Assembly: GCA_002838945.1 (NCBI GenBank)
Contig: PGXB01000001.1
Span: 62,001 to 126,000 of the forward strand
Direction of reading: 5' to 3'
DNA: 64,000 nucleotides
Source of the DNA: a candidate division Zixibacteria bacterium HGW-Zixibacteria-1
GTDB lineage: Bacteria > Zixibacteria > MSB-5A5 > GN15 > PGXB01
Part shown: piece by piece, positions 8,160-32,053 of the stretch
Layout: each line of letters begins with the position of its first letter
How positions within the stretch are numbered: position 1 is the stretch's first letter
The notes under the pieces: model-generated
Databases searched by the model: none
Told to the model about the DNA's origin: nothing
What the model saw: only the letters and a program-made list of their open reading frames with translations
Translations under genes and position numbers: made by a program

Positions 8160-8187
8160 TTGACTTTAGCTGACTCTGTGATATTTT
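8160..8187 (+). promoter_or_regulatory. Candidate promoter overlapped by the CRP-type operator
   Basis: TTGACT (8160-8165), a 16-bp spacer and TATTTT (8182-8187). The -10 hexamer is exactly the central spacer of the TGTGA-N6-TCACA palindrome, so a bound regulator would block it. A second possibility is a downstream activator-dependent promoter with TATTAG at 8219-8224. Confidence 0.4.
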
Positions 8188-8192
8188 TCACA
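8177..8192. promoter_or_regulatory. CRP/FNR-superfamily operator, copy 1
   Basis: TGTGATATTTTTCACA is a perfect TGTGA-N6-TCACA palindrome about 90 bp before the histidine kinase start. Identical half-sites stand before the two hydrogenase operons (22941-22956 and 32038-32053). Confidence 0.75.
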
Positions 8193-8282
8193 AGAGAGCT
8201 GGTAGAGTTTATTGAAATATTAGTTGCTTACGGCATTTGAAGGTTAGCAAATAAGGCAAACATTTTAAAGTGATAGAAGGTT

Positions 8283-9989
8283 ATGCCTCCTTCGTCGCCT
8301 GAAAAAGCCATATCCACGTTCCATTTTGGTTCTTATAATAAGGATCATTATCGGGATCTTCGACGCCGAAATGTCATTCGTCTGTTGCTGACTTATTTGT
8401 TGCCGCTGGTTCTGTTGGCCATTTATTTCATTTATCAGAATAACGCCATTATCCAGGACAGCCGGCGCCTGCATCTTAAGGGGATTGCGGAGAATCAGGC
8501 CAAGACTCTTAATCTCTTTCTGACCGAGCGGCTCGTCAATTTATCCAACTTGATTGATGATCCCAAGCTTCAGATTCCACCGGCATCCAGCATCATGCAG
8601 GATTATTTGAAGCATCTCAGGAAAAACAGCGAAGCCTTTGTCGATATCGGTTTTTTTGATTCAACGGGCGTGCAGACATCGTATGCCGGGCCCTTTCCAT
8701 CATTGGAGCGCCGCAATTACAGCTCCGAAGAATGGTATCGATCGCTGAAATCAAGGGATGACAATTATATAATCACCGATATTTATCTTGGCTTCAGGCA
8801 GCAGCCGCATTTTACGATCGCGGTTAGAAGAATCATTAACGGGCAGGCACTGGTAATGCGCGCCACTCTCAGCCCGGAAAAAGTCTATGATTATATCAGA
8901 TCTCTGGAAGGATCGCAGGAAGTCTATACTTCGATTGTCAACAAAAGCGGACAGTATCAGGTGGTTACCTATCATATCGGGACGCCGCTCGAGAAATCAT
9001 CAATCGTTCCTCCGGTTGACCCCAGGCTCGGTGTCGAGGATGTTAAAATCGAGGGAGCAAATATTATATACGCTTATTCATGGCTGGAATCGGCCGACTG
9101 GGCGCTTATCGTGCAGAACGAGGTCGCGGGCGGGAGCTTCTCGTTTATCAAATCAAATCTTCGGATAATGGGTCTTTCGACTCTGCTGATTCTGGCCATA
9201 TTTCTGATTATCATTAATCGCGCCAAACAACTGGTCAAATTCCAGATGGAAACCGACCGGACGCGCGCCCAGCTTGAACATGCCGCAAAATTAGCCTCCG
9301 TGGGCGAGCTGGCCGCCGGTATCGCCCATGAAATCAACAATCCGCTGGCCATAATCAGCGAAGAAGCCGGTTTGATGAGAGACTTTATCAATCCGGAATT
9401 CGGTCAGAATCTGAAATGTGAGGACTTGATTCCGCACCTCGACAATATCCATGAGTCGGTGTTCCGCTGCCGCGATATTACCCGAAAGCTTCTCGGATTT
9501 GTTCGTCGAACCGAGATGGATCTGAAACAGCTGACTATTCATAAGCTGATCGACGGCGTCCTGGATGGCATTCTGGGGCATGAAATGGCCGTATCAAATA
9601 TAGAAATTATCCGAAATTACGGGGCCGATGTCCCGGAACTGTTTACCGATGGGAATCAACTGCAGCAGGTTATATTGAATATTGTTAATAATGGTGTCGA
9701 TGCTATCGGGCACGGCCCGGGCAGTATAACGGTGGCCACCTTTGTTCAAAACAAATTTGTCTGCATTACCATTTCCGATACAGGGACCGGAATGAGTCCC
9801 GAACAAATGGAAAAGATATTCCTGCCTTTCTACACCACCAAGGAGGTCGGCAAGGGAACCGGGCTGGGATTGTCGGTAAGTTATGGTATAATAAAAAGTC
9901 TGGGCGGGAAAATAGAGGTCGAGAGTGTTCTGGGGAAAGGAAGCACCTTTATTATAAGTCTTCCGCTTCACCGTAAAAACGGCAAGTGA
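8283..9989 (+). CDS. Membrane sensor histidine kinase with extracytoplasmic Cache-like sensor
   Basis: 568 residues. One membrane span near residues 35-55 (LLTYLLPLVLLAIYFIY) and another near 300-320 (STLLILAIFLIIINR) enclose a ~240-residue periplasmic region resembling a double Cache sensor (YSSEEWYRS, ITDIYLG). The cytoplasmic part has the HisKA block ELAAGIAHEINNPLA with phospho-acceptor His349, an N box (VILNIVNNGVDAI), and G boxes DTGTGMSPEQ and GTGLGLSVSYGI, so ATP binding is intact. The class resembles kinases that sense small carboxylates or ions. First gene of a four-gene operon whose two receiver domains are likely targets. The ligand is unknown. Confidence 0.88.
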   Translation: MPPSSPEKAISTFHFGSYNKDHYRDLRRRNVIRLLLTYLLPLVLLAIYFIYQNNAIIQDSRRLHLKGIAENQAKTLNLFLTERLVNLSNLIDDPKLQIPPASSIMQDYLKHLRKNSEAFVDIGFFDSTGVQTSYAGPFPSLERRNYSSEEWYRSLKSRDDNYIITDIYLGFRQQPHFTIAVRRIINGQALVMRATLSPEKVYDYIRSLEGSQEVYTSIVNKSGQYQVVTYHIGTPLEKSSIVPPVDPRLGVEDVKIEGANIIYAYSWLESADWALIVQNEVAGGSFSFIKSNLRIMGLSTLLILAIFLIIINRAKQLVKFQMETDRTRAQLEHAAKLASVGELAAGIAHEINNPLAIISEEAGLMRDFINPEFGQNLKCEDLIPHLDNIHESVFRCRDITRKLLGFVRRTEMDLKQLTIHKLIDGVLDGILGHEMAVSNIEIIRNYGADVPELFTDGNQLQQVILNIVNNGVDAIGHGPGSITVATFVQNKFVCITISDTGTGMSPEQMEKIFLPFYTTKEVGKGTGLGLSVSYGIIKSLGGKIEVESVLGKGSTFIISLPLHRKNGK

Positions 9990-10049
9990 ATTTGAGATAG
10001 ATACAGGCTGGAAAAAAAACAAAATAATATAGCCCACAAGGGGAAAGAG

Positions 10050-10604
10050 ATGAAAACAAAACGTGTGAAAGAGTTGATGGTGCCGCTGGAGTCGTATCCG
10101 ACGGTTCCCCAGGATTCGACTTTGCTGGAGGCCGTGGATAAATTCGAGCGCGTGCAGAAGATGCGCGACCGGAGACGTCAGCCGTACCGGGCCATTTTGG
10201 TGGTGGATGAAACCAATCAGGTGGTCGGCAAAATCGGCCAACTGGCTTTTCTCAGGGCGCTGGAACCGCAGCGAAATGTCCTGGGCGACATGGGCAAACT
10301 TGCGATAGCCGGCGTCAGTGCCGACTTTATCAACACCATGATGAATCATTTCCAGTTTTTCCAGGACAGCATGGCCGACATATGCCGCCGGGCGCGCCAT
10401 ATCATCGTCAAAGACGTAATGGTCCCGGTTACCGAGAGTATCGACGAAGAGGCCACTCTGGGCGAGGCCATATACAGGATTGTCGCCCTGCAGACGCTTT
10501 CGATTATGGTGACCAGAAAAGGCAAGATAGTGGGGCTGCTCAGGCTTTGTGATGTCGTGCAGGAAATCGCCGACGAGATGAAGCACTGTGACGAGTTGAA
10601 CTGA
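10050..10604 (+). CDS. CBS-pair domain protein
   Basis: 184 residues with a good ribosome site (AGGGGAAAGAG) before the ATG. Two CBS motifs are visible: VKELMVPLESYPTVPQDS with AILVVDETNQVVGKI, and VKDVMVPVTESIDEEATL with IMVTRKGKIVGLL. A helical insert of ~50 residues separates them. CBS pairs usually bind adenine nucleotides and gate partner enzymes or transporters. Its position between the kinase and the receiver-transporter fusion suggests it relays energy status to that transporter; this is inference. No catalytic domain is attached. Confidence 0.85.
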   Translation: MKTKRVKELMVPLESYPTVPQDSTLLEAVDKFERVQKMRDRRRQPYRAILVVDETNQVVGKIGQLAFLRALEPQRNVLGDMGKLAIAGVSADFINTMMNHFQFFQDSMADICRRARHIIVKDVMVPVTESIDEEATLGEAIYRIVALQTLSIMVTRKGKIVGLLRLCDVVQEIADEMKHCDELN

Positions 10605-10627: not shown

Positions 10628-12661
10628 ATGCCAAAAATACTCTTGGTTGACGATGAGAACAAGTTTCGCGAGTCTCTGGCCAAACGTCTTTCCTTGAGAG
10701 GATATGAAACGGTCGATGTCGATAACGGTGAAGATGCCATAAAACTGGTTCGTGCCGATTCGGATATTGACGTCGTTCTTCTTGATAGAAAAATGCCCGG
10801 TATGAACGGGGAGCAGGTTCTTAACGAGATCAAATCATTCCGACCGGAACTTCAGGTTATCATGCTGACGGCCTTTGGGTCACTGCAATCGGCAATGGAA
10901 ATCGGGAGGCTTGAAGCTTACTCATATATGGAAAAGCCGACTGATTTCGAAGAAATTGTCAAGACGATCGATGCCGCACGCGAAGATAAAGTGCATGTTA
11001 TGGCGAGGCACGAGGTCCCGCAGGTCGAAAAGGGCTCTCTCTGGAAATGGCTGATTGGGACACATAATACCCGCCCGGGGGTTATTTTACTGGGGATTCT
11101 TTTATTCACTATTTTGATATTTATGCCTTCGCCCCAGAGGCTGATGACCCTGCTATCGGCACCTAAGACCGGTCAGGTCACTGACTCCAACTTTGGTTTT
11201 GCCAACTACCGTCAGATGAAAGACGGCGAAACGATCGCCGAATATTACAGCACACATTACAAAGTCGGCAGGAACGTGACCAATGACCAGGGCAAGAAAA
11301 CAATGGAGGCTCTGACGCCTGAAGAAACATCTGTCAGGGCACGGATAATGCTGGGTGTCCTGCTGGTAGCGGCCCTGTTCTGGGCCACCGGCGCTATCCC
11401 GGTCGGTGTCACTGCTTTGTTGACCGGTGTCATGATGTATTTCTTCGGCATTCTAAAGCCGGATGATATTGCCCAGGCGTTTGCCAAAGATGCCGTAATC
11501 TTTATCTTCGGTGTCCTGGCGGTATCGGCGGTAATAAGCAAAACCGGCCTGGATCGCCGGATCGGGCTGTTGCTGTTGGGCCCATCGAAAAATATCGGGC
11601 GGCTTCTTTTCTTGTTTCTGCCGATGCTTGGAGTGGCCTGTTCATTCGTCTCCGAGCATGCCCTGATTGCCTTTATCATGCCGCTTTTCATGATGGTCTA
11701 CATCACGTCAATTCGCGCGGCGGGTGTCAAGAGGGACCGGGCGCTGGCGGTTATGTTCGTTCTTTCGATCTGTTTTGCAGCCAACTGCGGCGGCCCCGGC
11801 TCACCTGCGGCCGGCGGACGTAACGCCGTCATGCTCGGCATCCTGAGTGACTACGGCAACGCGCCGACATTCATCGAGTGGGTGAAATACGGTTTGCCTT
11901 TCGTGCCTGTAATGGGTCTGGTAATTGCAACCTATTTCTACTTTATGTTTCGTCGTAAGCTGAAGGTTAAGGAATTGAATGTCTCATCAATAGTTCGAAA
12001 TGCTTCGGAGAAAATCGGCCCGATGAACAGGGATGAATATATAACGGCGTTCGCGCTGATCGGCTTGATTCTCTTGTGGATTCTTGGCAGCGATAAATTC
12101 GGCATGGGCGGGCCGGTCATCCTGTGCATCGTTTTTCTGAACGTCTTCAGGATACTGCGCTGGCGGGATATCGCCAATATTCCGTGGGATGTGGTTTTTC
12201 TTTATGCCAGCGCCAGCGCCATCGGCAAGGGTCTGGCGGTAACCGGCGGAGCCTTGTATATGGCCGACAGTTTTATCAACATCCTGCCCGATTTCCTGAC
12301 CAGCGGCTCAGGACTGGCCATAGCGGTCAGCCTGTTCACCGGTATTACCACCAATTTCATGAGTGACGGCGCCACCGTCTCGGCGATCGGCCCGATCGCC
12401 ATACCCATGGCCACCATATCGGGTTCCAATCCCTGGATGATCGGTCTGGCGACCGCTTTTGCATCATCCTTTGCCCATATGTTAATCATCGGAACGCCCA
12501 ACAATGCCATCGCCTATGCCATGGCCAAGGACCCGATAACCGGAGAGCAGCTCGTGAAATTGAGTGACTTTTTTAAGCACGGTTTTGTTATATTGCTGTT
12601 GTCGTTCGCCGTGCTCTGGTTCTGGGTGATTCTCGGGTACTGGCAGTTTTTGGGATTTTAG
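10628..12661 (+). CDS. Response-regulator receiver domain fused to SLC13/DASS-type membrane transporter
   Basis: 677 residues in one uninterrupted frame. Residues 1-120 are a complete CheY-like receiver: acidic pair D8/D9, phospho-acceptor D53 in VVLLDRKMPG, MLTAFG, and the conserved lysine in YMEKP. After a linker and an initial membrane span (~145-165), the rest is a multi-span SLC13/DASS anion permease (LLVAALFWATGAIPVGVTAL, VIFIFGVLAVSAVISKTGLD). The substrate/Na+ SNT motifs are altered to SEH (CSFVSEHALIAF) and SDG (FMSDGATVSAIGPI), so the substrate may not be a usual dicarboxylate or sulfate. Transport apparently controlled directly by phosphorylation would fit the preceding kinase. No frameshift was seen at the junction. 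Confidence 0.87.
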   Translation: MPKILLVDDENKFRESLAKRLSLRGYETVDVDNGEDAIKLVRADSDIDVVLLDRKMPGMNGEQVLNEIKSFRPELQVIMLTAFGSLQSAMEIGRLEAYSYMEKPTDFEEIVKTIDAAREDKVHVMARHEVPQVEKGSLWKWLIGTHNTRPGVILLGILLFTILIFMPSPQRLMTLLSAPKTGQVTDSNFGFANYRQMKDGETIAEYYSTHYKVGRNVTNDQGKKTMEALTPEETSVRARIMLGVLLVAALFWATGAIPVGVTALLTGVMMYFFGILKPDDIAQAFAKDAVIFIFGVLAVSAVISKTGLDRRIGLLLLGPSKNIGRLLFLFLPMLGVACSFVSEHALIAFIMPLFMMVYITSIRAAGVKRDRALAVMFVLSICFAANCGGPGSPAAGGRNAVMLGILSDYGNAPTFIEWVKYGLPFVPVMGLVIATYFYFMFRRKLKVKELNVSSIVRNASEKIGPMNRDEYITAFALIGLILLWILGSDKFGMGGPVILCIVFLNVFRILRWRDIANIPWDVVFLYASASAIGKGLAVTGGALYMADSFINILPDFLTSGSGLAIAVSLFTGITTNFMSDGATVSAIGPIAIPMATISGSNPWMIGLATAFASSFAHMLIIGTPNNAIAYAMAKDPITGEQLVKLSDFFKHGFVILLLSFAVLWFWVILGYWQFLGF

Positions 12662-12679: not shown

Positions 12680-13168
12680 ATGACGGATAATATCAAACTA
12701 CTCATTGTCGATGACGAGGTAAAATTTCTCGATTCCATTGCGCAAAGGCTGGAACTTCGCGGGTTCGGCGTCACCAAGGCCAAGAGCGGACTGGAGGCGA
12801 TCGAGGCCGCCAAGACCGGCAAGTTTGACCTGGCCCTGCTGGATCTAAAAATGCCCGGCATGGACGGCACGCAGGTGCTGGAAATTCTCAAAAAAGAGCA
12901 TAAATATCTCGAGGTGATTATCCTGACCGGTCACGGCTCGGTCGATTCGGCGGTAGAATGCACCAAGCTGGGCGCATTCAGCTATCTCCCTAAGCCGTAC
13001 GAACTGGATATGCTCCTTGAGAAGCTGAAAGAAGCATTCCAGGAAAGACTGCGCAAAAAATTCGAAACCGACCAGGCACGGATGGACAAAATTGCCAAAC
13101 TGGCGGCCGGATCCAGCCCGCTGGGAATTTTACGTGAATTGAGAAAACTCGACGACGAAGTGAAGTAA
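12680..13168 (+). CDS. Stand-alone response regulator (receiver plus helical tail)
   Basis: 162 residues. The receiver has D11/D12, phospho-acceptor D55 in LALLDLKMPG, the switch threonine in IILTGHGS and the lysine in YLPKPYE. A charged helical tail (~120-162) replaces any DNA-binding or enzymatic output. It starts 18 nt after the transporter gene and is clearly paralogous to that gene's receiver (VDDExKFxxSxAxRLxLRG in both). It may act as phosphate sink, adaptor or competitor for the same kinase. It ends 9 bp before the stop of the converging hypE. Confidence 0.88.
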   Translation: MTDNIKLLIVDDEVKFLDSIAQRLELRGFGVTKAKSGLEAIEAAKTGKFDLALLDLKMPGMDGTQVLEILKKEHKYLEVIILTGHGSVDSAVECTKLGAFSYLPKPYELDMLLEKLKEAFQERLRKKFETDQARMDKIAKLAAGSSPLGILRELRKLDDEVK

Positions 13169-13177: not shown

Positions 13178-14233
13178 TCAGCAGATTCGCGGCAGTTGCT
13201 CGCCGCTGAGCATATCGATGATACGATCGGCGCCGATGATGCTTTTCATGGTTACGATACCGTCGTTCTTCCCGCTGACTTTTCCGATAATCGCCGCTTC
13301 CGGCCAGAGCGATTCCTCGTGCAAAATATCCATGACTTTATCGGCATCTTTGTCCGGGACAAAGATGACCATGCGTCCTTCATTGGCGACATAAATCGGA
13401 TCAAACCCGAGAATTTCGCAAGCGCCGCGCACCTGATCGCAGACCGGAATCTTGTTCTCCTCAACTTCTATACGGCAGCTTGAGGTCGAAGCGATCTCGA
13501 CCAGCGAAGCGGCCAGACCGCCTCTGGTCAGATCACGCAAACAGTGAATATTAATTCCGCGGTCAAGCAGTTTCAGCACGGTTGCGGCCAGTGGGGCGCA
13601 GTCGCTCTCGATGGTGGTCTCAAAGGCAAGCCCCTCGCGGCGGGCCATGATGGCCATGCCGTGCCGTCCGATATCGCCGTTGATAATGACGACATCACCG
13701 GGTCGGACCGACGATGGTGCAATAGTCAGCTCATGTTCAATAACGCCGACCCCGGCGGTATTTATAAACAGACCGTGCCCGCGGCCCTTATCGACAACCT
13801 TGGTATCACCGGTAACGATGCTGACAGCGGCCTGATCGGCGGCTTCTCTCATCGAAAGCGCTACTCTCCATAGCGAATCCATGGAAAATCCTTCTTCGAT
13901 AATAAATCCTGCGCTGAGGTACAGCGGCCGTGCCCCGCACATGGCCAGGTCATTGACAGTACCATCGATGGCCAGTTTGCCGATATCACCTCCGGGAAAG
14001 AACAACGGATCGACCACATATGAGTCGGTCGTAAAGGCGAGACGATTCCCTTTTATTTTCAAAACAGCGCCATCATGCGCGGTCTCAAGGTGGGGATTGG
14101 CAAAAGTGGCGGCAAAAATTTTATCGATCAATTGATGCATCAACCTGCCCCCGCCGCCGTGCGCCAGCAGGACATGCGGATAATCGGAGATCGGTATGGG
14201 GCAGTTTAGTCCGCTATATTTTTTATCATTCAT
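13178..14233 (-). CDS. hypE: Hydrogenase maturation factor HypE
   Basis: Dehydrates the thiocarbamoyl group on its C-terminal cysteine to the cyanide ligand of the [NiFe] active-site iron. The 351-residue length is typical. Visible are the N-terminal ATP-binding block [38 protein letters not shown] and the essential C-terminal tetrapeptide PRIC. Last gene of the hyd-hyp transcription unit, 6 nt after hypD. Confidence 0.96.
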
Positions 14234-14239
14234 GGCATT

Positions 14240-15355
14240 TTATCCCAATTGATGGCCCATTGATTCGGGTCCGGCTTTTCGGTAACGATAGTATGCGGCG
14301 CAGGCGCCTTCCGATGAGACCATGGTCGCCCCCAGTGGATGCTCCGGGGTGCATTTGGTCCCAAAAACGGAACATTCGAACGGCTTCTTTTTTCCCTGAA
14401 GAATCAGCCCGCTGATACACTCGGCGGACTCCTCGGCACACATATCCTCCAGCCCGAAGCGTTTGGCGGCATCGAATTCAAGATACTTTTCGCAAAGGGC
14501 CAGACCGCTTTTTTTAATAATGCCAAGACCGCGCCATTTGCGGTCGACGACAGTAAACACTTCGCCGATAATTTTTTTCGCTTCAAGGTTTCCTTCCCGG
14601 CGGACGGCACGCCGGTACTGATTTTCAACCTCGGCGCGGCCCTCTTCGAGCTGGGCAATCGTCATATATATGCCCTGAAGAATATCGATCGGTTCAAAGC
14701 CGGTCACCACAATGGGGATTCTGTATCTGGAAACAATCTTTTCATAGTCTTCAAATCCAACCACCGAACAGACATGTCCGGCGGCCAAAAAACCCTGAAC
14801 ATTGTTTCCGGGCGCGCCGAGAATAGCCTCCATGGCGGGGGGAATAAGCACCTGGGCCATGAGTATCGAAAGATTTTTTAAATTCAATTGCCTGGCCTGA
14901 TAAACCAGTGAGGCATTGGCTGGAGCGGTGGTTTCGAAGCCGATGCCGAAAAAAACCACTTCTTTTCCCGGATTGTCACGGGCGATCTTAATCGTGTCGG
15001 TCGGCGCATAGACGGTGCGGATATCGCCGCCTTCGGCTCTGACCGACAGCAGGTCTTTGCTGCTTCCGGGAACGCGCATCATATCGCCGAATGAACAGAA
15101 GATGACATTCGGTCTTGATGAAATTGCCACCGCCATATCGACCAGTTCGACCGGAGTCACACATACGGGGCAGCCGGGCCCATGAAGCAGTTCAATTTTT
15201 TTGGGCAGGAGTTGATCGATACCGCTTTTGAGAATAGCATGGGTCTGCCCGCCGCAGACTTCCATAATGGTCCAGTTACGGGTGGTAATCCTGGCGATTT
15301 GCCTGACATAACGGGCGGCCGTCACCGGATCGCGGAATTCATCGATATACTTCAC
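14240..15355 (-). CDS. hypD: Hydrogenase maturation factor HypD
   Basis: Iron-sulfur scaffold on which Fe(CN)2CO is built together with HypC and HypE. 371 residues with the diagnostic [23 protein letters not shown] and the C-terminal cysteine cluster region ending in CAAYYRY. The start overlaps the hypC stop (ATGA), so translation is coupled. Confidence 0.96.
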
Positions 15356-15606
15356 GAATCATTATCCCCGGAATTTCCCAATTCTTCTATTTGACGAAGA
15401 TATTCGAAGGTTTGATTGGCCTCTTCTTCATTGACGGTGCTGATGGCAAAACCGGCATGCACCAGAACATAATTCCCGATCCCGGCTTCGGGCACGAGGG
15501 TCAGGTTGATCTCTTTGAGAACCCCGCCGAAACTGACTTTTCCGGTCCTCGAAAGAGAATCATCCGATTCTATACTGACAACTTTTCCCGGTATGGCAAG
15601 ACACAT
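15352..15606 (-). CDS. hypC: Hydrogenase assembly chaperone HypC
   Basis: 84-residue member of the HypC/HupF family that shuttles the Fe(CN)2CO unit from HypD to the large subunit. It begins with the canonical MCLAIPGKV, whose Cys2 is the iron ligand. One nucleotide separates it from the hypF stop. Confidence 0.95.
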
Positions 15607-15607
15607 A

Positions 15608-17878
15608 TTACAGTTCCAATTCTATTCCGCCGGCCGCCGCCATGATCTGCCCGATGGCGATGCCGCCGTCATTGGGCGGGATGCGGTGATGCCGGTATGG
15701 TTTAAATCCGGCCGACTCGAGACGGCTGATTGTTTTCTCGGTCAAATATTTGTTCTGAAAACAGCCGCCGGTCAGCACGACATTTTTCTCTCCAATATTT
15801 TCCGCTATAGCCAATATAATATCCGCCAGCGTATTTTGAAACCTGGAAGCGATTCGCCCCGGAGCCGCCACATTATGCATATCCGTGAAAATATCATGTA
15901 TAATTTGCTGCCAGTCAACGATGCTTTTCGATTCTTCCGAGATTAACCTGAATGTGTATGACTTCTCGTCAGGCTCGGAATCAGCCGCAAATTCAAGCAT
16001 CATGGCTGCCTGGCCCTCATAGCGGGAGACCTGGCAGATGCCCAGAATTGCGGAAACGGCATCGAATAGCCTTCCGGCGCTCGAGGTTCGGGGAGTGTTA
16101 ATATTTTTCTCCAGCATGGTTCTTAAGACCGCGGTATCGGAATTATCGAATGACATGAGCGGCGCAAGCTCTTTCATCGCGAAAACATCACTGCCAAAAA
16201 CCTCATATAACAATCCGAGTGCGGATCGCCGCGGCTCCCGGACGGCATAATCGCCGCCGGGCAGAGGGAAACATCTCAAATGGGCGATGCGCCTGATTTT
16301 CTTTCCGGTTACCTGAAAAAATTCGCCGCCCCAGATTGTTTTATCCGGGCCGAGGCCGGTGCCGTCCCAGGAGACACCCAGAACCGGCTCACTGAGTCGA
16401 TTATCCGCCATGCAGGATAGAACATGGGCCACATGATGCTGAACTTTTCTTGCCGGCAGGCCCATGTTGTCGGCAAAACGCGTGGACAAATAATCGGGAT
16501 GAAGATCCGACACGACCATCGCTGGTTTGAAATCATATATATCTGATAATGAGGCGGTTACTCGTTTCATGGCTTCGAAGGCTTCGGCGGTCTCCAGATC
16601 ACCGATATGCTGGCTGGCGAAAGCATGGTTTCCATTTGCAATGGCCACTGAGTTTTTTAGATGGGCGCCAACCGCCAGAATGGGGGAAACATGATTTGTC
16701 AGACTGACGGGTGTCGGGGCATAGCCGCGGGCATTGCGCATGACCATCGGTTGACCGTTCATCAGGCGGACGATGGAATCATCCATCTGTCTTGCAATAG
16801 GCCGGTTATGCATCAGGAACAGGTCGGCAATATCACCCAGTCGTTGAAGAGCTTCATTCTCATCGATGCAAATCGGCTCGTCGGACAAGTTGCCGCTGGT
16901 GGCGACAATCGGGAATGACAGTTCGGCCATCAGCAGATGATGCAATGGCGTGTAGGGCAGCATCACTCCCAGGTAAGGATTGCCCGGCGCCACGGAAGCG
17001 GCGATTTCGCTATTGGAATTGCTTCGGAGCAAGGTTATCGGTGACGGCGGTGATAACAGCAGCTCTCTCTCGGCAATCGATAATTCACAATCGCGTAAGA
17101 CAACTTCCATTGACGGGTACATCAGGGCCAGCGATTTTTCCTCACGGGCTTTGCGTTTACGCAATAGTTTCACCGCGTCATCATTGCGGGCGTCAACCAG
17201 CAGTTGAAAACCGCCAAGGCCTTTAAGGGCGAGTATCTTTCCCTGTTTGATCGCTTCGCAGGCAGCCATCAGGGCATCATCATGCATCGCCAGAACATCG
17301 CCGCTATTGCTCCACAACTGCAGATGCGGCCCGCATTCGGGGCAGGCATTGGGCTGGGCGTGGAATCTGCGATTCGATGGATCCTCGTATTCCTCACGGC
17401 AGCGGCGGCACATCGGGAAAATTTTCATGGTAGTGTTGCCGCGATCATAAGGGAGCGTATAGATGATGCTGTAACGAGGCCCGCAATTGGTGCAATTTGT
17501 AAATGGGTAGCGAAAACGCCGGTTGGATGGATCAAAGATGTCGTCCAGACATTTTTGGCAGGTGGCGATATCGGGAAGCACCAGGGCGGTCTTGCTGCCG
17601 CCATTGCCACTGATGCGAACGATAAATTCCTTATGCCCGACCGGATCGAGATCGGCCATTTCCTTATGATTAATCAGGGCCAGAGGCGGTTTTTCGGTGT
17701 CGAGACGATTGACGAATCGGTCAATATTATTCTCGTCCCCTTCAATATCGATTTCCACCCCCTGCGGCGAATTGCCGACCCAGCCGTGCAATTCAAGTTC
17801 ATTGGCAAGGCGATAGACAAAGGGTCGAAAGCCAACCCCCTGCACTGTCCCCTCTATTTTGATCAACAGACGTTTCAC
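15608..17878 (-). CDS. hypF: Carbamoyltransferase HypF
   Basis: Makes the carbamoyl group that becomes the CN ligands. Domains in order: acylphosphatase (IEGTVQGVGFRPFVYRLA), two C4 zinc fingers (CQKC...CTNC and CRRC...CPEC), a YrdC-like domain, and the Kae1-like carbamoyltransferase with VQHHVAHVLSCMADN and VSWDGTGLGPD. The frame can start at 17941, but the GTG at 17878 gives the normal N-terminus VKRLLIKIEG, lies 25 nt after the protease stop and has GGATGG upstream; it is preferred (756 residues). Confidence 0.95.
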   Translation of the reverse strand: MKRLLIKIEGTVQGVGFRPFVYRLANELELHGWVGNSPQGVEIDIEGDENNIDRFVNRLDTEKPPLALINHKEMADLDPVGHKEFIVRISGNGGSKTALVLPDIATCQKCLDDIFDPSNRRFRYPFTNCTNCGPRYSIIYTLPYDRGNTTMKIFPMCRRCREEYEDPSNRRFHAQPNACPECGPHLQLWSNSGDVLAMHDDALMAACEAIKQGKILALKGLGGFQLLVDARNDDAVKLLRKRKAREEKSLALMYPSMEVVLRDCELSIAERELLLSPPSPITLLRSNSNSEIAASVAPGNPYLGVMLPYTPLHHLLMAELSFPIVATSGNLSDEPICIDENEALQRLGDIADLFLMHNRPIARQMDDSIVRLMNGQPMVMRNARGYAPTPVSLTNHVSPILAVGAHLKNSVAIANGNHAFASQHIGDLETAEAFEAMKRVTASLSDIYDFKPAMVVSDLHPDYLSTRFADNMGLPARKVQHHVAHVLSCMADNRLSEPVLGVSWDGTGLGPDKTIWGGEFFQVTGKKIRRIAHLRCFPLPGGDYAVREPRRSALGLLYEVFGSDVFAMKELAPLMSFDNSDTAVLRTMLEKNINTPRTSSAGRLFDAVSAILGICQVSRYEGQAAMMLEFAADSEPDEKSYTFRLISEESKSIVDWQQIIHDIFTDMHNVAAPGRIASRFQNTLADIILAIAENIGEKNVVLTGGCFQNKYLTEKTISRLESAGFKPYRHHRIPPNDGGIAIGQIMAAAGGIELEL

Positions 17879-22966: not shown

Positions 22967-22995
22967 AATATAATGTGCGCCAATAATATTGTCAA
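22967..22995 (-). promoter_or_regulatory. Promoter of the group 3b hydrogenase operon
   Basis: Read on the minus strand: TTGACA (22995-22990), exactly 17 bp, TATATT (22972-22967). The start of transcription is expected near 22960, just before the operator. Confidence 0.75.
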
Positions 22996-23709: not shown

Positions 23710-23726
23710 AATATTGCTCCAAAAGC

Positions 23727-24395: not shown

Positions 24396-24424
24396 ATCAT
24401 TTCCGTTTTTGTAATCGTGCCCCA

Positions 24425-24766
24425 TTATTTTTCGACAAGGTATGTAATATCAAGTTCTTCCCCCTGTACTAAATACATATCGGTCGAACCGCAAAAAGGA
24501 CATATAAAAACAAACTCATTTACTTCAAAATCTTTGAGGCAGGAGCGGCAGTTTCCCTTAACCGGAACCTGCTCGATTTTAAGCACGGCTCCGTCAAGAG
24601 GGGTATCGACAACGGCCGCCTCGAAACTGAAAGAGAGCGCACCGGCATCAAACCCGGACAGGGCTCCCAGACGAAGGCCGACTTCTTTGATTCCGGACAG
24701 TTTCAGCCGGTTCATCTCATTTTGCACAATCTCAATTATCTCAGTTGCCACACGCAGTTCATGCAT
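24425..24766 (-). CDS. hypA: Hydrogenase nickel-insertion protein HypA
   Basis: 113 residues. Begins MHELRVATEI with the nickel-binding N-terminal MH. The zinc site is CRSC with CPFC 24 residues later. Overlaps the upstream protease gene by 8 nt. Confidence 0.95.
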   Translation of the reverse strand: MHELRVATEIIEIVQNEMNRLKLSGIKEVGLRLGALSGFDAGALSFSFEAAVVDTPLDGAVLKIEQVPVKGNCRSCLKDFEVNEFVFICPFCGSTDMYLVQGEELDITYLVEK

Positions 24767-25232
24767 GAAAAGCCCTGTCTTGCCACCAGTTTATATAAGC
24801 CATGACGCACGGTATCAGCTTCTTCAACGATTTTGACACCGCCGCGCTCATTTCCTTACCCACAGTGTAAGGATCATCAACTTCAACCGCAAAGATTTTT
24901 ATTTCTTCCGGGAAGTCAAGCTGCATCTGTTCCGCCAATAATATTAATTCGGGCAATCCGGTATAATGGGGTGACGGACTCATAACCGTTCTTAAGTCGC
25001 CCAGTTCGAGTTCGATAACCGACCCGGGCGAAAAACCGGACATTTGAATGGCGTCGATTATTATAACCTGTCGGTATCCGACCAGAAGATCAAGGAGCGC
25101 CACCCCATGCATGCCGGTGGCGACCACATCGGCTTGGCCGTTGAGCATGGTCTGCAGTTTCTCGGCGGCCAGAATGCCGATGCCGTCGTCACCAAGCAAG
25201 TCGTTGCCCAAACATAAAATCAGCGGTTTCAT
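24759..25232 (-). CDS. Hydrogenase maturation protease for the MvhA large subunit
   Basis: 157 residues, HycI/HoxM-like. LILCLGNDLLGDDGIGILAA holds the first acidic metal ligand, VIIIDAIQMSGFSPG the second, and SPHYTGLPELI the histidine. It is placed 3 nt downstream of mvhA, its probable substrate. It is clearly different in sequence from the protease beside hydA, so each large subunit has its own. Confidence 0.92.
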   Translation of the reverse strand: MKPLILCLGNDLLGDDGIGILAAEKLQTMLNGQADVVATGMHGVALLDLLVGYRQVIIIDAIQMSGFSPGSVIELELGDLRTVMSPSPHYTGLPELILLAEQMQLDFPEEIKIFAVEVDDPYTVGKEMSAAVSKSLKKLIPCVMAYINWWQDRAFHA

Positions 25233-25235
25233 GGC

Positions 25236-26699
25236 TCACCTGCGGCGAATATCCCGGATCATATGGTGGTTGCTGTCAAAAACCCTGACCGCTAACGGCA
25301 TCTGCCCCGGCAAGGCATGTGTGGCGCAGCCGTGGCAGGGGTCATAGGCCCGGAAAGCCATCTCCACCATGTTCAAAATTCCGTCATCGACCTGACCGTT
25401 TTTAATCAGGCCTTTGGCCGCCTTATCGACCGACAGGGCGATCCTGGCGGAGTTATTCTGTGTCGCCACAATCAGGTTGGCCTTGGTAATCACCCCTTTT
25501 TCATCGGTCTGATAATGATGAATAAGGGTCCCGCGAGGAGCTTCGACAATTCCGACACCCTCGACCGGCTTTTCGGTAGGTATGTTATGCACTTTGGGAT
25601 TGACAATTTCCGGATCGCTCGCCAGCTCTCTCATCCGCTCGGCGCTGTAAAGCATTTCGATCAACCTGGCCCAGCTTGTGGCCAGTGTGAAATGCACCGG
25701 TTTGCCGCCGCAGGTTTGATAAAACTGTTCATAAGCTTCCTGGGCCAACGGCGTGGCCATGCCATCGGCGGCATTCAGGCGGGCCAGCGGCGCCACGGCA
25801 AAGATGCCGCTGTCGGGGCCGTCGGCAAAGCCGTTCCAGCCGATATCCTTAAGGTAGCTGAAACGCATATAGCTCCACGGCTCGACATGCTCCGCGATAT
25901 GATCCAGGTATTTGCCGTGCGGAAATTTGCACAGCTCTTTGCCGTCCGGATCGACCACCCGGATCGGCCCATCATAGAAATTCACCTTATTGTTCTGATC
26001 CACCATACCCATGTAATATGTCTTATGGGTATAGATATCCGAGGTAATGTGTTCCATGTACTCAGGATTGTTGAGAACAACATCATTGAAGATTTTCAGG
26101 CTGAATTGCGCAAATTCTACCGCAACCTCGGCAGCATCGATAATCTTCTGCTGGTCGCCCTTTGCAATCGGCTTGGAAATGCCGCCCGGCAGACCGAAGA
26201 CAGGATGAATGGTCTTACCCATTATCATGGTCATCAGGTCGCGCAACTGTTTGCGCGTGCCGATTACCTTCAGGCCGATTTCCTGCCCGACTTTGCCGAG
26301 AACGCCCAGAATATTCCGTTCCGCTTTGGGCGCTTTCGGCCCGACGACAAAATCGGGCCCGGCCAGAAAGAAGAAATGCAGGGCATGATCCTCGACATAA
26401 AAGATATTGTAAACCAGTTCCCTTATTTTTTTGGCGGCCGGCGGCGGCTCGACTTTGTACAGGTCATCGAGAGCCTTGGTCCCGGCCATATGATGAGCCG
26501 TCGGGCAGACGCCGCAAATACGCGAGGTGATTTGCGGCATATCCTCGGCCGGGCGCCCCTGAGCGAATCTTTCAAAACCGCGCAGCTCCGGCACCTGAAG
26601 GTAGGCTCTGTCAACACCGCCGCTGTCATTCAGGATGATATCGATTTTGCCGTGCCCCTCGAGCCGCGTGATGGGATCTATAACGATTCTTTCATTCAT
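25236..26699 (-). CDS. mvhA: [NiFe] hydrogenase large subunit, Hdr-linked MvhA type (group 3c)
   Basis: Oxidises H2 and feeds electrons through MvhG and MvhD to HdrA. 487 residues. L1 has C62/C65 in RICGVCPTAHH. L2 is DPCHGCATH with C455/C458 and H461, leaving an unusually long C-terminal peptide of 26 residues to be removed. The N-terminal DPITRLEGHGKI is typical. It starts 8 nt inside the end of mvhG. Confidence 0.94.
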   Translation of the reverse strand: MNERIVIDPITRLEGHGKIDIILNDSGGVDRAYLQVPELRGFERFAQGRPAEDMPQITSRICGVCPTAHHMAGTKALDDLYKVEPPPAAKKIRELVYNIFYVEDHALHFFFLAGPDFVVGPKAPKAERNILGVLGKVGQEIGLKVIGTRKQLRDLMTMIMGKTIHPVFGLPGGISKPIAKGDQQKIIDAAEVAVEFAQFSLKIFNDVVLNNPEYMEHITSDIYTHKTYYMGMVDQNNKVNFYDGPIRVVDPDGKELCKFPHGKYLDHIAEHVEPWSYMRFSYLKDIGWNGFADGPDSGIFAVAPLARLNAADGMATPLAQEAYEQFYQTCGGKPVHFTLATSWARLIEMLYSAERMRELASDPEIVNPKVHNIPTEKPVEGVGIVEAPRGTLIHHYQTDEKGVITKANLIVATQNNSARIALSVDKAAKGLIKNGQVDDGILNMVEMAFRAYDPCHGCATHALPGQMPLAVRVFDSNHHMIRDIRRR

Positions 26700-27684
26700 G
26701 GCTGTTTTCTCCTGGAACGGAAGGTTGATAGCGCCGATGCATCATTGAGGCCGGAAGGCTGTACCGGTGGAAGGTTCCGACCGGATCGACAATCTGACTC
26801 AGGATTTCGATGATCTCCCGGTCATCGTTCGAATCGGCCATGGATGCAAAAGCCGAAAGCGCTTTGGCGCCGAAATCGATTACGCGACTGGTCGGCCCCA
26901 TGCATCCGGTGCAGGGCATATTGCCTTTGGGGCAGGCCGACCCGCAACCCTGACGGGTTACCGGACCCAGGCAGAGCAGACCCTGGGCGAGAAGGCATTT
27001 TTCCTGATCGATTTCTATTTCGAAGGGCCGCTTGAAACTCTTCAGAGCCATTTTTTCCGGTTTGGTGTCGCGGCGTTCGCATTCCTCACAGAGGGAAATA
27101 TCCGGTGCGAGAACCGCTCCCGGAGCGGGCAGCTGCCCGCTGAGAATAGCCCCGACCGCTTCTTTTATCAGTTTGACCGGCGGCGGGCAGCCGGGCAGAT
27201 AGTACTCCACCTTGATAACCTGATCGAGCGACTTGACCGTGTCCCATAATAGGGGAAGGGTCAAGATTCCGTTGCCGGTGTCATAGGCCAGTTTCGGCAC
27301 CATTTTTTCATCATTGACGACTGAGGGTGCATTGAAATAGACTTCCTCGATCATCTCCTGTCGATTGAAGGTGTTGGCCAGACCGGGAATTCCGCCCAGA
27401 TGGGCGCAGCTTCCGAAGGCTATCACGATTTGTGATTTCCGGCGCAGTAACTCGACCATCTCATGCTGCTCCGAAGAACGGACGGCTCCGTTGATAAAGC
27501 TGACGACTATCTCACCGTCCGCCATCGCTTCAACATCACTCTTCTTGAAATCAAGTGCGACCGGCCAGAAAACAATATCGACCGCTCCGACGACCTGAAG
27601 AATATCTTCGGCCAGATCGACAACCGCTTCCTCACAGCCGCCGCATGAGGCACACCAGTAAAAGGCAACTTTGGGTTTACTCAT
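26692..27684 (-). CDS. mvhG: [NiFe] hydrogenase small subunit MvhG
   Basis: Iron-sulfur subunit of the Hdr-linked hydrogenase. The frame extends to 27852, but ATG 27684 gives MSKPKVAFYWCASCGGCEEA with the proximal-cluster cysteines and overlaps the mvhD stop as ATGA; 56 spurious residues are excluded (330 aa). Further cluster motifs are FGSCAHLGG, PGCPPP, CEECERRDT, CLGPVTRQGCGSACP and MPCTGCMGP. Confidence 0.93.
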   Translation of the reverse strand: MSKPKVAFYWCASCGGCEEAVVDLAEDILQVVGAVDIVFWPVALDFKKSDVEAMADGEIVVSFINGAVRSSEQHEMVELLRRKSQIVIAFGSCAHLGGIPGLANTFNRQEMIEEVYFNAPSVVNDEKMVPKLAYDTGNGILTLPLLWDTVKSLDQVIKVEYYLPGCPPPVKLIKEAVGAILSGQLPAPGAVLAPDISLCEECERRDTKPEKMALKSFKRPFEIEIDQEKCLLAQGLLCLGPVTRQGCGSACPKGNMPCTGCMGPTSRVIDFGAKALSAFASMADSNDDREIIEILSQIVDPVGTFHRYSLPASMMHRRYQPSVPGENSHE

Positions 27685-28187
27685 GGCGTCCCTCCTTGCA
27701 CGGCGGTTACATTTTTGGCCGATCCGGCGGTCGGCTCGTGAAGCGCCGCGACAGTCATCGGTTCCAGATGAAGCGGCCCCAGTCGGCGAACCTGCTCGGT
27801 CATCTGGTTGATGACCTTCTGGACCTTGTCGCCTTCGGAAGCGGCGATCCATTCCATTCGCAGTCGTTCCGGCTCGATACCCATGGCGGCCATGTATCTC
27901 TTAAGCAGCGTCATTCTTCGCAGCGCCTTGTAATTGCCCTCCTGATAATGGCAGTCACCGGGATGGCAGCCGCCGATCAGGACACCGTCGGCCCCTTCGC
28001 GGAAAGCTTTGACGATAAACTGGGCATCGATCCGTCCCGAGCACATGACGCGAATCACGCGGACATTGGCCGAGTACTGCATCCGGGCGGTGCCGGCCAG
28101 ATCGGCGGCAGTATAGGTACACCAGTTGCAGAAGAAGGCAACAATCCGCGGCTCGAATCCGTTGGTTTTATTTTCAGCATCAGACAT
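27681..28187 (-). CDS. mvhD: MvhD, [2Fe-2S] adaptor between hydrogenase and HdrA
   Basis: 168 residues from ATG 28187, which has AAGGAG nine bases upstream; the longer frame to 28274 lies inside hdrA. All five family cysteines appear: FFCNWCTYTAADLAG, VMCSGRID, and GGCHPGDCHY. It passes electrons from MvhG to the flavin of HdrA. In several methanogens this domain is fused to HdrA; here it is separate. Confidence 0.93.
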   Translation of the reverse strand: MSDAENKTNGFEPRIVAFFCNWCTYTAADLAGTARMQYSANVRVIRVMCSGRIDAQFIVKAFREGADGVLIGGCHPGDCHYQEGNYKALRRMTLLKRYMAAMGIEPERLRMEWIAASEGDKVQKVINQMTEQVRRLGPLHLEPMTVAALHEPTAGSAKNVTAVQGGTP

Positions 28188-30183
28188 AATTGATGACTCC
28201 TTCGATTTCATGGAAAATCTGTTCATCGGTGAAAAGATTCTGCTGCAGGGCGCCTGACGGACAGGCCGCCACACATGTCCCGCAGCCCTTGCACATGGCC
28301 CCGTTCACTTCGGCCGCATGCTTTTCCGCGATGAAATTGATGGCGCTGTACGGGCAGAGATTGATACAGGTATGGCACCCGGAGCAGTGTTCGGCCTGAA
28401 CATAAGCAGTGTTCGGTTCCAGTTGCACGAAGCCTTTATCAACCAGCGCCAGTGCCTCGGCCGCCGCCGCCCCGGCCTGGGCGACACTCTCGGGAATATC
28501 CTTTGGTCCCTGGCAGGCCCCGGCCAGAAAAACACCGTCGGTGAAGGTTGACACGGGAGCCAGTTTGGGATGCCGCTCCAGGAACCAGCCTTCACGACTG
28601 CAACTGATATTGAACATCCGGCGGACATCCTCATGATCAGTCTGCGGCTCAAGACCAACCGAGAGTATGACCATATCGACCGGGATGCGGCGGACCGACC
28701 CGATCAACGTATCCTCGGCCCGGATAACCAGATGCCCTTCTTCCTCGGGGGTCATGGCCCAGTCGGTGACTTCGGCCACCCGGCCGCGGATGAAGTGGAC
28801 ATCTTCCATCAAGAGTTTCTCGTAGAATTCCTCATAACCCTTGCCGGGCGTCCGCATATCAATATAGAAATTGTAAATTTCCGCTCCCGTACGCTCCTTG
28901 ACCAGATGTGCCAGTTTGAGAGAGTACATACAGCACACCTTGGAGCAGTACTTATTGGTTTTATTGTCGCGGCTTCCGACACAATGCACGACCCCGACCG
29001 CCTTGGGTTTCTTGCCATCCCTCATGACAATTTCCCCACCGGTCGGCCCGGCGGCATTGGTCAGCCGTTCCACTTCAAGACTGGAATAGACATTGGGGTA
29101 CTTGCCGTAACCGTAGCGTGAAATGCGCGAGGCGTCGAAAGCCCGGTAGCCGGTGGCCAGGATAATGGCGCCGACATCGATTTCCTTTATTTCGGCTGTC
29201 TGTTCTAAATCAATCGCATTCTTCTGGCAGACTTCGACACACGTTTTCTTGCACTTGCCGGTGCGGAAATGGGCGCAGTCTTCGGGATCAATCACCGCCA
29301 CCAGCGGCGTCGCTTGCGGGAAAGGTACATAGATCGGCTTGCGTTTGCTCAGGCCGACATTGAATTCATCGGGCGTTTTGCCTTTCTTGAAAATGCAGGC
29401 CTCGATGCAGTCGAGGCAGCCGACGCATTGATCCTCGATGACATAGCGCGGTTTGCGTTTTACTTTCACCTTGAAATTGCCCACATATCCTTGCACATTA
29501 TCGATCTCGGAATAGGTCCAGAGAGTGATATTGGGATGCGAACGCACCGCCGACATTTTCGGCGTCAGGATACAGGCGGAGCAGTCGAGAGTCGGGAAAG
29601 TCTTGTCGAACTGGGCCATGTGCCCGCCGATAGTCGGTTCGCGCTCGACCAGGAAGACCTTGCGGCCGGAATCGGCCATGGTGAGAGCGGCATGAATTCC
29701 GGCGATACCGCCTCCGACCACCAGGACATTGGGATTAACCGGCACCCGGCTCTGCTCCAGCGGACGGTGCCAGGCGACCCGCGCGACCGCCGCGGCAATC
29801 AGCGCCTTGGCTTTTTCGGTCGCAGCCGCTTTATCTTTGGTGACCCAGCTCACATGCTCGCGGATATTGGCCATCTGGAACAAGAACGCGTTGGCATTAG
29901 CCGCCACCATGGCCCGCCGGAAAGTCGGTTCATGCATCAGGGGCGAGCACGAGGCAACCACGACGCGGTCGATCTTACCGGAGCGGATATCTTCCTGTAT
30001 CAATTCCTGTCCCGGATCGGAGCACATGAATTTATATTCTTTGGCAATCGTCACATGGGGCAATTTGGCGGCAAATTCGACGGTGCTGTTGATATCGACC
30101 ATATGGGCGATATTGATACCGCAGTGACAGACATACACACCGATTTTCGGTGCGCCATTGGGATTTATATCAACTGTGGACAT
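28180..30183 (-). CDS. hdrA: HdrA, FAD/iron-sulfur electron-bifurcating subunit
   Basis: 667 residues from ATG 30183 behind a strong AGGAGGT. N-terminal cluster segment GVYVCHCGINI; Rossmann FAD fold VLVVGGGIAGIHAALTMADS; LDCSACILTPKM; an inserted ferredoxin motif CVGCLDCIEACIF; VHCVGSRD; and a C-terminal double ferredoxin (CSGCHTCINLCP and CKGCGTCVAACP). This is the family known to split electrons from H2 between a high-potential acceptor at HdrB and low-potential ferredoxin. The bacterial high-potential acceptor is not evident. Confidence 0.94.
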   Translation of the reverse strand: MSTVDINPNGAPKIGVYVCHCGINIAHMVDINSTVEFAAKLPHVTIAKEYKFMCSDPGQELIQEDIRSGKIDRVVVASCSPLMHEPTFRRAMVAANANAFLFQMANIREHVSWVTKDKAAATEKAKALIAAAVARVAWHRPLEQSRVPVNPNVLVVGGGIAGIHAALTMADSGRKVFLVEREPTIGGHMAQFDKTFPTLDCSACILTPKMSAVRSHPNITLWTYSEIDNVQGYVGNFKVKVKRKPRYVIEDQCVGCLDCIEACIFKKGKTPDEFNVGLSKRKPIYVPFPQATPLVAVIDPEDCAHFRTGKCKKTCVEVCQKNAIDLEQTAEIKEIDVGAIILATGYRAFDASRISRYGYGKYPNVYSSLEVERLTNAAGPTGGEIVMRDGKKPKAVGVVHCVGSRDNKTNKYCSKVCCMYSLKLAHLVKERTGAEIYNFYIDMRTPGKGYEEFYEKLLMEDVHFIRGRVAEVTDWAMTPEEEGHLVIRAEDTLIGSVRRIPVDMVILSVGLEPQTDHEDVRRMFNISCSREGWFLERHPKLAPVSTFTDGVFLAGACQGPKDIPESVAQAGAAAAEALALVDKGFVQLEPNTAYVQAEHCSGCHTCINLCPYSAINFIAEKHAAEVNGAMCKGCGTCVAACPSGALQQNLFTDEQIFHEIEGVINYV

Positions 30184-31078
30184 GCTGACCTCCTGCAACT
30201 TCTCGCAATTCATTTGACGGCTGAAGCCGGACAAAGAGACGGTTCATGCCCAGCTTGCGCTGTTCAAGACCGAAGGCAATGCCCATCAACTGGGTGAAAT
30301 AGACAACCGGAATTTCGCCGCCGCCGCCGAATCGTTTTGCTATTTGCGGCTGATAACATTCCAGATTGAACTGGCAGAGCGGGCAGGCAGTGATGATGAC
30401 GTCGCTGCCGCGCTTTTTTGCCTCATTCAGTAAGATGTAGCTCAATCTCAGACCGACATCCTGTATCGTTCCAGTCAATGAACCGCCGCAACATCTGGTC
30501 TTGAGGGGCCAGTCGATGGTTTCGCCGCCCAGAGCCTTGACGATGCGATTCATTGAGGTCGGGTCATGTTGATCGTCGAAATCGGCAAAGGGGCGAACCA
30601 ACTGACAGCCGTAATAGCAGGCGACTTTCAGACCGGCTAGCGGCCGGTTAACCTGTTCGGCGATTCTTTCGGTGCCGATGTCATTGACCAGGACATCAAG
30701 CGGATGCCTGATTTTGGTATGACCATGATATTCCAGCCCGCCGGCGGCCAGGGCGCGCTTGACAGTGTCGTTCAACGTCTTATATTCATTCAGATAGCGC
30801 CTGGCCTTGTTCAGACCGAGATAACAGGCGGCGCAGGGAACAACCATCTCGGCGCTGCCGTTATCGCCGTTCTGCTGTTCGGCCAGGGCGAAATTGCGGG
30901 CACTGAGCGCAAAGGCTTTGAGCTCGCTGACCGACATATAAGCGGTGGCGCCGCAACAATTCCAGTCATCGATTTCCTTCATCGGGATTTTCAGAGCCTC
31001 GAACACGGCCAGCATCGATTCCTCGTATGCCCGGCCGGTACCCTTTAAGGAGCATCCAGGGAAATACATGTAACTCAT
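30170..31078 (-). CDS. hdrB: HdrB, CCG-domain catalytic subunit
   Basis: 302 residues with both CCG cysteine sets complete: C9, C41-C42, C82, C85 and C154, C196-C197, C232, C235. These bind the two non-cubane [4Fe-4S] clusters that reduce disulfides in methanogen heterodisulfide reductase. A bacterium lacks CoM-S-S-CoB, so another disulfide or protein thiol is likely; the co-transcribed DsrC-like protein is a candidate. The start overlaps the hdrC stop as ATGA. Confidence 0.94.
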   Translation of the reverse strand: MSYMYFPGCSLKGTGRAYEESMLAVFEALKIPMKEIDDWNCCGATAYMSVSELKAFALSARNFALAEQQNGDNGSAEMVVPCAACYLGLNKARRYLNEYKTLNDTVKRALAAGGLEYHGHTKIRHPLDVLVNDIGTERIAEQVNRPLAGLKVACYYGCQLVRPFADFDDQHDPTSMNRIVKALGGETIDWPLKTRCCGGSLTGTIQDVGLRLSYILLNEAKKRGSDVIITACPLCQFNLECYQPQIAKRFGGGGEIPVVYFTQLMGIAFGLEQRKLGMNRLFVRLQPSNELREVAGGQHVHS

Positions 31079-31707
31079 AGATTTACCTCCCCAATTGCTT
31101 CCAATTCCTCTTTGCTCTTGACCATATGCTCTTTTTCGAGCATTTTAAGGATGCTTTTCAATTCATCCTTGCGTTTGATCGATTCTTTTTTGAGGCTGAA
31201 GCGGCCGCGTATCAACAACTTCCAGCCCAAACCGGCCTGCTTGAACATCTGAAAGGGATTGGTTTTCAAAAAGAGCCGAAGCAACAGGCGGCCCTCGCTG
31301 CTGCGGCCGTCCCTTTCGACACATTTGAAAAACTCACCGGCCAGAACCGAGATTGGGAAACGTTTGGGATAGACTTTTCCGCGGATGGCCAGCCGCTTGA
31401 CGGCATACATAATATCGGTAAGTTTGATCTCTTTGGGGCATTCGACGGTGCAGGAATAGCATGAAGCACACAGCCAGGTGGTGTAACTGCTGAGCACTTC
31501 ACCTTTGCATCCGGCCCGAATCATGGCGATAATTTGTCGCGGGGTGAAATCCATGTACGGGCTCATCGGGCACATGCCGCTGCACGTCCCGCACTGGATA
31601 CAACTGAAAAGCTTATCCCCGCCGGGAATTGACGCAATTTCGCGGGAGAAACTCGAATCCAGTTCCGCCTCATAACGAATTTTGCGCCACCCTTGCCATT
31701 TTTCCAT
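31075..31707 (-). CDS. hdrC: HdrC, [4Fe-4S] ferredoxin-like subunit
   Basis: 210 residues from ATG 31707 behind AGGAGG. The two cluster motifs are CIQCGTCSGMCP and CASCYSCTVECP. It connects HdrA and HdrB. The frame extends to 31827, but those 40 residues lack a ribosome site. First gene of a ten-gene unit running down to the tandem DsrC gene. Confidence 0.93.
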   Translation of the reverse strand: MEKWQGWRKIRYEAELDSSFSREIASIPGGDKLFSCIQCGTCSGMCPMSPYMDFTPRQIIAMIRAGCKGEVLSSYTTWLCASCYSCTVECPKEIKLTDIMYAVKRLAIRGKVYPKRFPISVLAGEFFKCVERDGRSSEGRLLLRLFLKTNPFQMFKQAGLGWKLLIRGRFSLKKESIKRKDELKSILKMLEKEHMVKSKEELEAIGEVNL

Positions 31708-32037
31708 GACATCCTCCTTGGGGCAATGGTTAATCGGAGGCATCAATTCCTGAACAAACCATCCACTCGGGGACGGCCTGTCAAATGAGGTGGCGCAGCA
31801 AAAGCCGGATTCGGTCAACCCGGACACCGGTTATGAGAACCGGCGCCGGCCCGAGCCGGACGGATCGTCGCTATCCTGTCCTGTACAATTCAGCCGCATA
31901 GATCCGATTCGCCGAATCGGTGTCGCCCAGGGCATAACATGGACACGGCGAATTGTTCGGATACGCGGGCGCTGAGAAGATGGCATATAACCGTATGTTC
32001 TATAAGTATATCCGACCATTGCAAACCGTCGATAGAA
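31708..32037 (-). other. Long, hairpin-rich leader of the Hdr-Mvh operon
   Basis: About 330 nt separate the operator from hdrC. Two perfect stems are seen: CCGATTC-GCC-GAATCGG (31904-31920) and CCGGTT-ATGAG-AACCGG (31827-31843), in a GC-rich stretch unlike the AT-rich sequence upstream. No T tract follows, so they are not simple terminators. A minus-strand frame at 31831-32241 has no family features. Confidence 0.4.
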
Positions 32038-32053
32038 TGTGAAATTATTCACA
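32038..32053. promoter_or_regulatory. CRP/FNR-superfamily operator, copy 3
   Basis: TGTGAAATTATTCACA is a perfect TGTGA-N6-TCACA palindrome. It begins about 5 nt downstream of the predicted Hdr-Mvh transcription start, nearly the same placement as at the group 3b promoter. Confidence 0.8.

Follow-up and report, generated by a model that had tools for sequence, protein, structure and literature searches.

In other bacteria the regulator Rex binds DNA at a low NADH/NAD+ ratio and is released as NADH rises (PMC8457756); its consensus operator is TTGTGAANNNNTTCACAA, and hydrogenases are among the genes that it controls (PMC6391272). In Desulfovibrio vulgaris Rex represses sat, and deletion of rex lifts sat transcripts about 11-fold (PMC7531388). 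A palindrome of the same kind before sat and apsAB in Desulfovibrio, overlapping the -10 box, was first given to another regulator, the CRP/FNR protein HcpR, which has an arginine, Arg180, in its recognition helix (Rodionov 2004, PMC545781). On CRP-like sites HcpR requires this arginine at helix position one, and serine or proline there is accompanied by FNR-like motifs (PMC545781; PMC5701242), a helix without the first-position arginine going with the FNR-like motif TTGAC (Rodionov 2004, PMC545781). Here we describe three CRP-looking palindromes in a 64-kb stretch (the window) of the genome of the candidate division Zixibacteria bacterium HGW-Zixibacteria-1, which from their sequence are very probably operators of Rex, the regulator of the redox-sensing type, with the form TTGTGAA-N4-TTCACAA. 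CRP-looking sites in anaerobes may more generally be Rex's, and the HcpR assignment in Desulfovibrio is a precedent.

Perfect copies of TGTGA-N6-TCACA lie at 8177-8192 (TGTGATATTTTTCACA), 22941-22956 (TGTGATTTATTTCACA) and 32038-32053 (TGTGAAATTATTCACA), where the original prediction had placed them; it had called them identical, which holds for the ten fixed bases that they share and not for the central six, which vary. The exact pattern is expected 0.059 times by chance in 64 kb (50.9% GC), well under one as had been claimed, and the probability of at least three copies is about 3e-5. The predicted geometry was found as well: all three sites fall in promoter gaps of operons (kinase/receiver-transporter, group 3b hydrogenase and Hdr-Mvh), directly after a 17-bp-spaced promoter at both hydrogenase operons and over the -10 box at 8177, and an operator over the -10 box or 9-10 bp past it is placed for repression, all promoters being consensus predictions and all gene starts predictions. 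The start codon of hdrC is 218 bp away from the site at 32038, which also lies about 370 bp 5' of a divergent giant beta-helix gene; because the site is kept before hdrC in relatives, it probably serves the Hdr-Mvh operon.

In the whole genome (3.83 Mb, about 97% complete, 82 contigs), the exact pattern has 16 occurrences, where composition predicts 3.5 and a reversed-pattern control gives none; two sites are close to contig ends. Fourteen of the 16 are intergenic, so the scatter through coding regions that would have spoken against a regulon is absent. The two coding-region sites (C1:177334 and C6:85882) do not fit the extended motif and were discarded as chance. The extended form TTGTGAA-N4-TTCACAA is that of the published Rex operator TTGTGAANNNNTTCACAA, and a scan with it at up to two mismatches gives 42 sites against 6 in the control; in 40 genomes of the same order, at up to one mismatch, there are 343 against 15. 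Positions 7 and 12 are fixed in Rex operators and free in CRP operators. Here they are A or T in 19 of 28 half-sites (p 4e-5 at an expectation of 30%, 0.003 at 40%); the core is of the CRP type, yet the central six show, at their outer positions, the A/T bias of Rex sites.

The genome encodes a single Rex (PF06971, E 9e-20; NCBIfam Rex models, E to 6e-72; solved Rex structures, E 1e-45), with Put_DNA-bind_N and Rossmann NAD(H) domains and the motifs RKDLSFFGSFGTRGLGY and GVGNIGSAL in its translation. Directly past the TTGACA-17-TAATTT promoter of rex, and 39 bp 5' of its GTG start, lies TTGTGAATTGATTCACAT, which agrees with 13 of the 14 fixed positions. An operator is present at this promoter in all 30 genomes examined (this one and 29 relatives), with nearly constant half-sites and a free centre, whereas the control reaches at most 10 of 14; carrying an operator in its own promoter, rex is predicted to be autoregulated.

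The original prediction had pointed to a CRP-type protein as the binder. In favour of this, the core pattern is the Escherichia coli CRP consensus, the sites first given to HcpR in Desulfovibrio are identical, and Rex and HcpR1 are said to have sites in common (PMC5701242). The search for a CRP/FNR protein with a helix-turn-helix domain returned one, on contig C15, away from the regulon sites. Its closest solved structure is DNR, and its recognition helix is SETLSR, of the FNR/DNR type and without the R-E-x-x-x-R pattern, with serine where HcpR has the TGTGA-reading Arg180. Positions 7 and 12 are constrained, for which CRP has no need, and control of the regulon by a CRP- or HcpR1-like protein is thus very unlikely. 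Because there is a single Rex, because an operator precedes rex everywhere and because the CRP/FNR helix lacks the arginine, we assign the sites to Rex. Other candidates were rejected: a second HTH_Crp match, on contig C5, is an ArsR-type protein; a stand-alone cyclic-nucleotide-binding (cNMP) protein at 21313-21777 has no recognisable DNA-binding domain; and a third cNMP protein (L192:1399-3258, G000:C47) is, by sequence, a cNMP domain fused to an aspartate-ammonia-lyase-like enzyme, and for these reasons the latter two are unlikely binders.

Some points weigh against the assignment to Rex. Two of the three sites in the window read TGTGAT, which departs from the Rex consensus at one inner position; near-identical sites are recognised by Rex and by some CRP/HcpR proteins (PMC5701242); a further CRP/FNR gene could conceivably lie in the unassembled few percent of the genome; and the case is weak at 8177, where the operon keeps its site in few relatives. 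The same site bears on whether the three palindromes arose by chance in promoter DNA rich in AT, for which it can be said that with two mismatches allowed the window holds 23 matches against 20 in shuffles. Exact matches are nevertheless above chance, mostly intergenic and absent from the reversed control, and they are kept in orthologous promoters. Among relatives, which are non-independent samples, the 3b site matches at least 11 of 14 positions in 21 of 23 and at least 12 in 18, where the control reaches 11 twice and 12 never, and 9 of the 11 close orthologues have the Hdr-Mvh site, against 0 in the control. Conservation therefore refutes chance for both hydrogenase sites and leaves it possible for 8177 only; for the three sites together it is extremely improbable. 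Of the 17 relatives whose upstream DNA was usable, 4 (three of them closely related to each other) have a kinase/transporter site that scores at least 12, and two more are borderline, so the expected presence of sites before orthologous operons held for the hydrogenases and only in part for this operon.

Throughout the genome, sites precede rex; sat, followed by aprB and aprA; qmoC; qmoA-qmoB, followed by dsrA-dsrB (the names qmoA and qmoB were assigned here from HdrA-type domains adjoining dsrAB); two complex I operons, one with NuoF; and an sdh/hdr-type operon divergent from sucC. They also precede genes for a membrane pyrophosphatase, indolepyruvate:ferredoxin oxidoreductase, aldehyde dehydrogenase, glutamate dehydrogenase, a carboxyltransferase, multihaem cytochromes and an MsbA-like exporter, besides the three window operons. 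In four relatives sat, qmoA, nuoA2, sucC/sdh, the aldehyde and glutamate dehydrogenases, iorA, the exporter and elongation factor G recur as targets, and citrate synthase and hemA are added. The site 5' of the elongation factor G gene is of the Rex type in four genomes (L046:4367-4384; L223, L237, L254). Zixibacteria hold full Dsr pathways (PMC10591310), and the Rex regulon appears to span sulfate respiration, hydrogen enzymes and complex I. The hydrogen/transport regulon first proposed was right in uniting both hydrogenase operons but too narrow, as the targets extend to NADH-linked energy metabolism in general and to sulfate respiration.

A Rex regulon for energy metabolism and sulfate respiration is a type known from other bacteria, and the present case extends it to a new phylum. 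With the D. vulgaris regulon, as far as it is described through later papers (Christensen 2015; Ravcheev 2012, via PMC7531388 and PMC6391272), it shares the operator type, the Rex family, sat as a target (here with apr) and an operator position compatible with repression. It differs in belonging to Zixiibacteriota (FCB group) and in that predicted sites also precede qmo-dsr, Hdr-Mvh, the 3b hydrogenases, two complex I operons and a putative sulfate-uptake operon. The Rex regulon of Caldicellulosiruptor bescii (PMC6391272) has in common with it the operator TTGTGAANNNNTTCACAA, rex autoregulation, hydrogenase operons and 2-oxoacid:ferredoxin oxidoreductase; that organism is a fermentative Firmicute without sulfate respiration genes, unlike the present one. 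An uncultured phylum with full dissimilatory sulfate-reduction genes thereby gains a testable circuit, in which one NADH sensor would stand ahead of sulfate activation, sulfite reduction, hydrogenases and complex I.

Table 1. Predicted operators, promoters and genes of the three operons in the window
Feature	Position	Strand	Remarks
Rex operator (predicted) CTGTGATATTTTTCACAA	8176..8193	+	overlaps -10 of sensor kinase/CBS/receiver-transporter operon; 12/14 fixed positions
Predicted promoter TTGACT-16-TATTTT	8160..8187	+	-10 at 8182-8187, within operator
dCache_1 sensor histidine kinase	8283..9989	+	first gene of operon; Pfam
CBS-domain protein	10050..10604	+	Pfam
Receiver domain fused to DASS-family sodium/anion symporter	10628..12661	+	likely sulfate uptake
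Small gene	12680..13168	+	ends same-strand block; gene prediction only
Rex operator (predicted) TTGTGAAATAAATCACAA	22940..22957	-	directly 3' of 3b promoter; 14 bp 5' of start codon; conserved
Promoter TTGACA-17-TATATT, 3b operon	22967..22995	-	consensus prediction; operator starts 9 bp past -10
Group 3b-type [NiFe] hydrogenase genes	18403..22925	-
3b Fe-S subunit	21810-22925	-
3b operon, stand-alone cNMP-binding-domain protein	21313-21777	-	without helix-turn-helix
3b NAD-binding subunit	20463-21323	-
3b small subunit	19682-20461	-
3b large subunit	18403-19692	-
Maturation genes: HycI protease, HypF, HypC, HypD, HypE-like	13178..18389	-	3' of 3b set
Rex operator (predicted) TTGTGAATAATTTCACAT	32037..32054	-	directly 3' of predicted Hdr-Mvh promoter; conserved
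Promoter TTGGAA-17-TATTAT, Hdr-Mvh operon	32065..32093	-	consensus prediction; operator starts 10 bp past -10
HdrC, HdrB, HdrA, MvhD(FlpD), hydrogenase small and large subunits, HycI protease, HypA, HypB, DsrC-like	23053..31818	-

The first operon (8283-13168) brings together a dCache sensor kinase, a CBS protein and a DASS transporter. The DASS family also covers dicarboxylate and citrate carriers. In Desulfobacteraceae a DASS sulfate-uptake cluster likewise consists of a Cache sensor kinase, CBS proteins and a DASS transporter (PMC11887813); what sets the present operon apart is the receiver domain fused to its transporter and the Rex-type operator in front. Because of this resemblance the operon is better tied to sulfate respiration than to hydrogen as such. 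Its proposed entry into the regulon thus stands in part, the operator lying over its -10 box while clear conservation is limited to the few relatives given above; judged from sequence, membership is plausible for this genome and not ancestral. The receiver-DASS fusion itself is kept across Zixiibacteriota and a few other phyla, and is possibly a phosphorylation-gated transporter.

If Rex binds these sites, as their sequence suggests, a Rex dimer, free or bound to NAD+, would occupy or just follow the -10 box of each promoter and block transcription; this reading as a block fits the operator covering the -10 box or beginning 9-10 bp past it at the window promoters. As NADH rises relative to NAD+, Rex would take up NADH and leave the DNA, and the 3b hydrogenase, Hdr-Mvh and the putative sulfate-uptake operon would be expressed along with sat/apr, qmo/dsr, complex I and further energy genes elsewhere in the genome. 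Reducing power could then go into H2, into heterodisulfide/ferredoxin chemistry and into sulfate. The response to NADH and the direction of regulation are taken from operator placement and from studied Rex proteins, by analogy with which high NADH probably switches on hydrogenases and sulfate reduction here.

Operator positions in relatives suggest a further question. For rex, 3b, hdrC, nuoA2 and iorA (78 positions, given relative to the end of the -10 box), the operators fall into discrete slots when compared with pseudo-sites scattered randomly over these upstream regions: 42 (54%) lie at -4 to +13, over the start site, against 13% in this null; 24 (31%) at -56 to -52, centred at about -51.5, against 3%; and 8 (10%) at -66 to -62, centred at about -61.5, against 3%. 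The region from -51 to -5 is depleted (2 of 78, or 3%, against 34%). At nuoA2, 13 of 17 cases share an offset of -54, despite distances to the start codon of 59 to 198. For iorA, two families have the operator at -52 to -55 and another has it at -2 to +5; for 3b, some genera have it at +8 to +13 and others, with weaker promoters, at -62 to -66, this last class being less secure because chance can give a best-of-scan promoter such scores. Fixed spacing implies that position matters, through activation or through occlusion of the RNA polymerase alpha subunit, and the slot data are compatible with either sign of the Rex effect.

An activator role of Rex has been suggested and is undemonstrated (PMC8457756; PMC3441419). 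It is tempting to speculate that Zixiibacteriota Rex is a blocker over -10/+1 and an activator from an upstream position held to within a few bp (centre at about -51.5 or -61.5), through contact with RNA polymerase at complex I, indolepyruvate oxidoreductase and some 3b promoters, and that iorA and the 3b hydrogenase moved between slots in sister lineages; we regard this joint extension of the Rex assignment as tentative and rather doubtful. The discrete slots and the fixed nuoA2 spacing speak for it, but promoters with the -51.5 slot have near-consensus boxes and would seldom need an activator, and the iorA operator, lying upstream or at the -10 box according to family, would imply opposite control of one gene. 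Blocking of an UP element or of the C-terminal domain of the alpha subunit equally demands a fixed position, and the comparison covers only five gene sets from related genomes. The slots nevertheless make the question of Rex as an activator testable on named promoters.

Several relatives carry arrays of TTGTGA-N6-TCACAA (L210:6721-7198, G036:C3; L211:6242-7237; L248:3020-3236; L239:3024-3230). One genome has seven copies at a 77-bp period, and the others have five to six, three and two; the arrays of G008 and G001 lie 0.7-0.9 kb 5' of genes for cohesin-domain surface proteins. A conserved leader of some 400-500 nt, which two genera share ahead of cohesin-domain proteins (L239:3500-3910 and L248:3450-3980; GTGTTGAAG..CTTCTGTTAAGA), is possibly a structured RNA; an Rfam search of the long leaders beside the multi-site arrays gave no match. 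A separate repeat, TTGTGGCTGATTTCACAA, recurs at the ends of contigs C20, C23, C33, C36, C38 and C70, is probably part of an insertion element or other repeat and was set aside. In the window, the genes divergent from Hdr-Mvh (32424-48116) begin with that of a 3094-residue beta-helix/Big_2 surface protein, followed by those of a TPR protein, a SpoIIE phosphatase, a HATPase/STAS protein, a STAS protein and a histidine kinase, an arrangement that resembles a partner-switching cassette.

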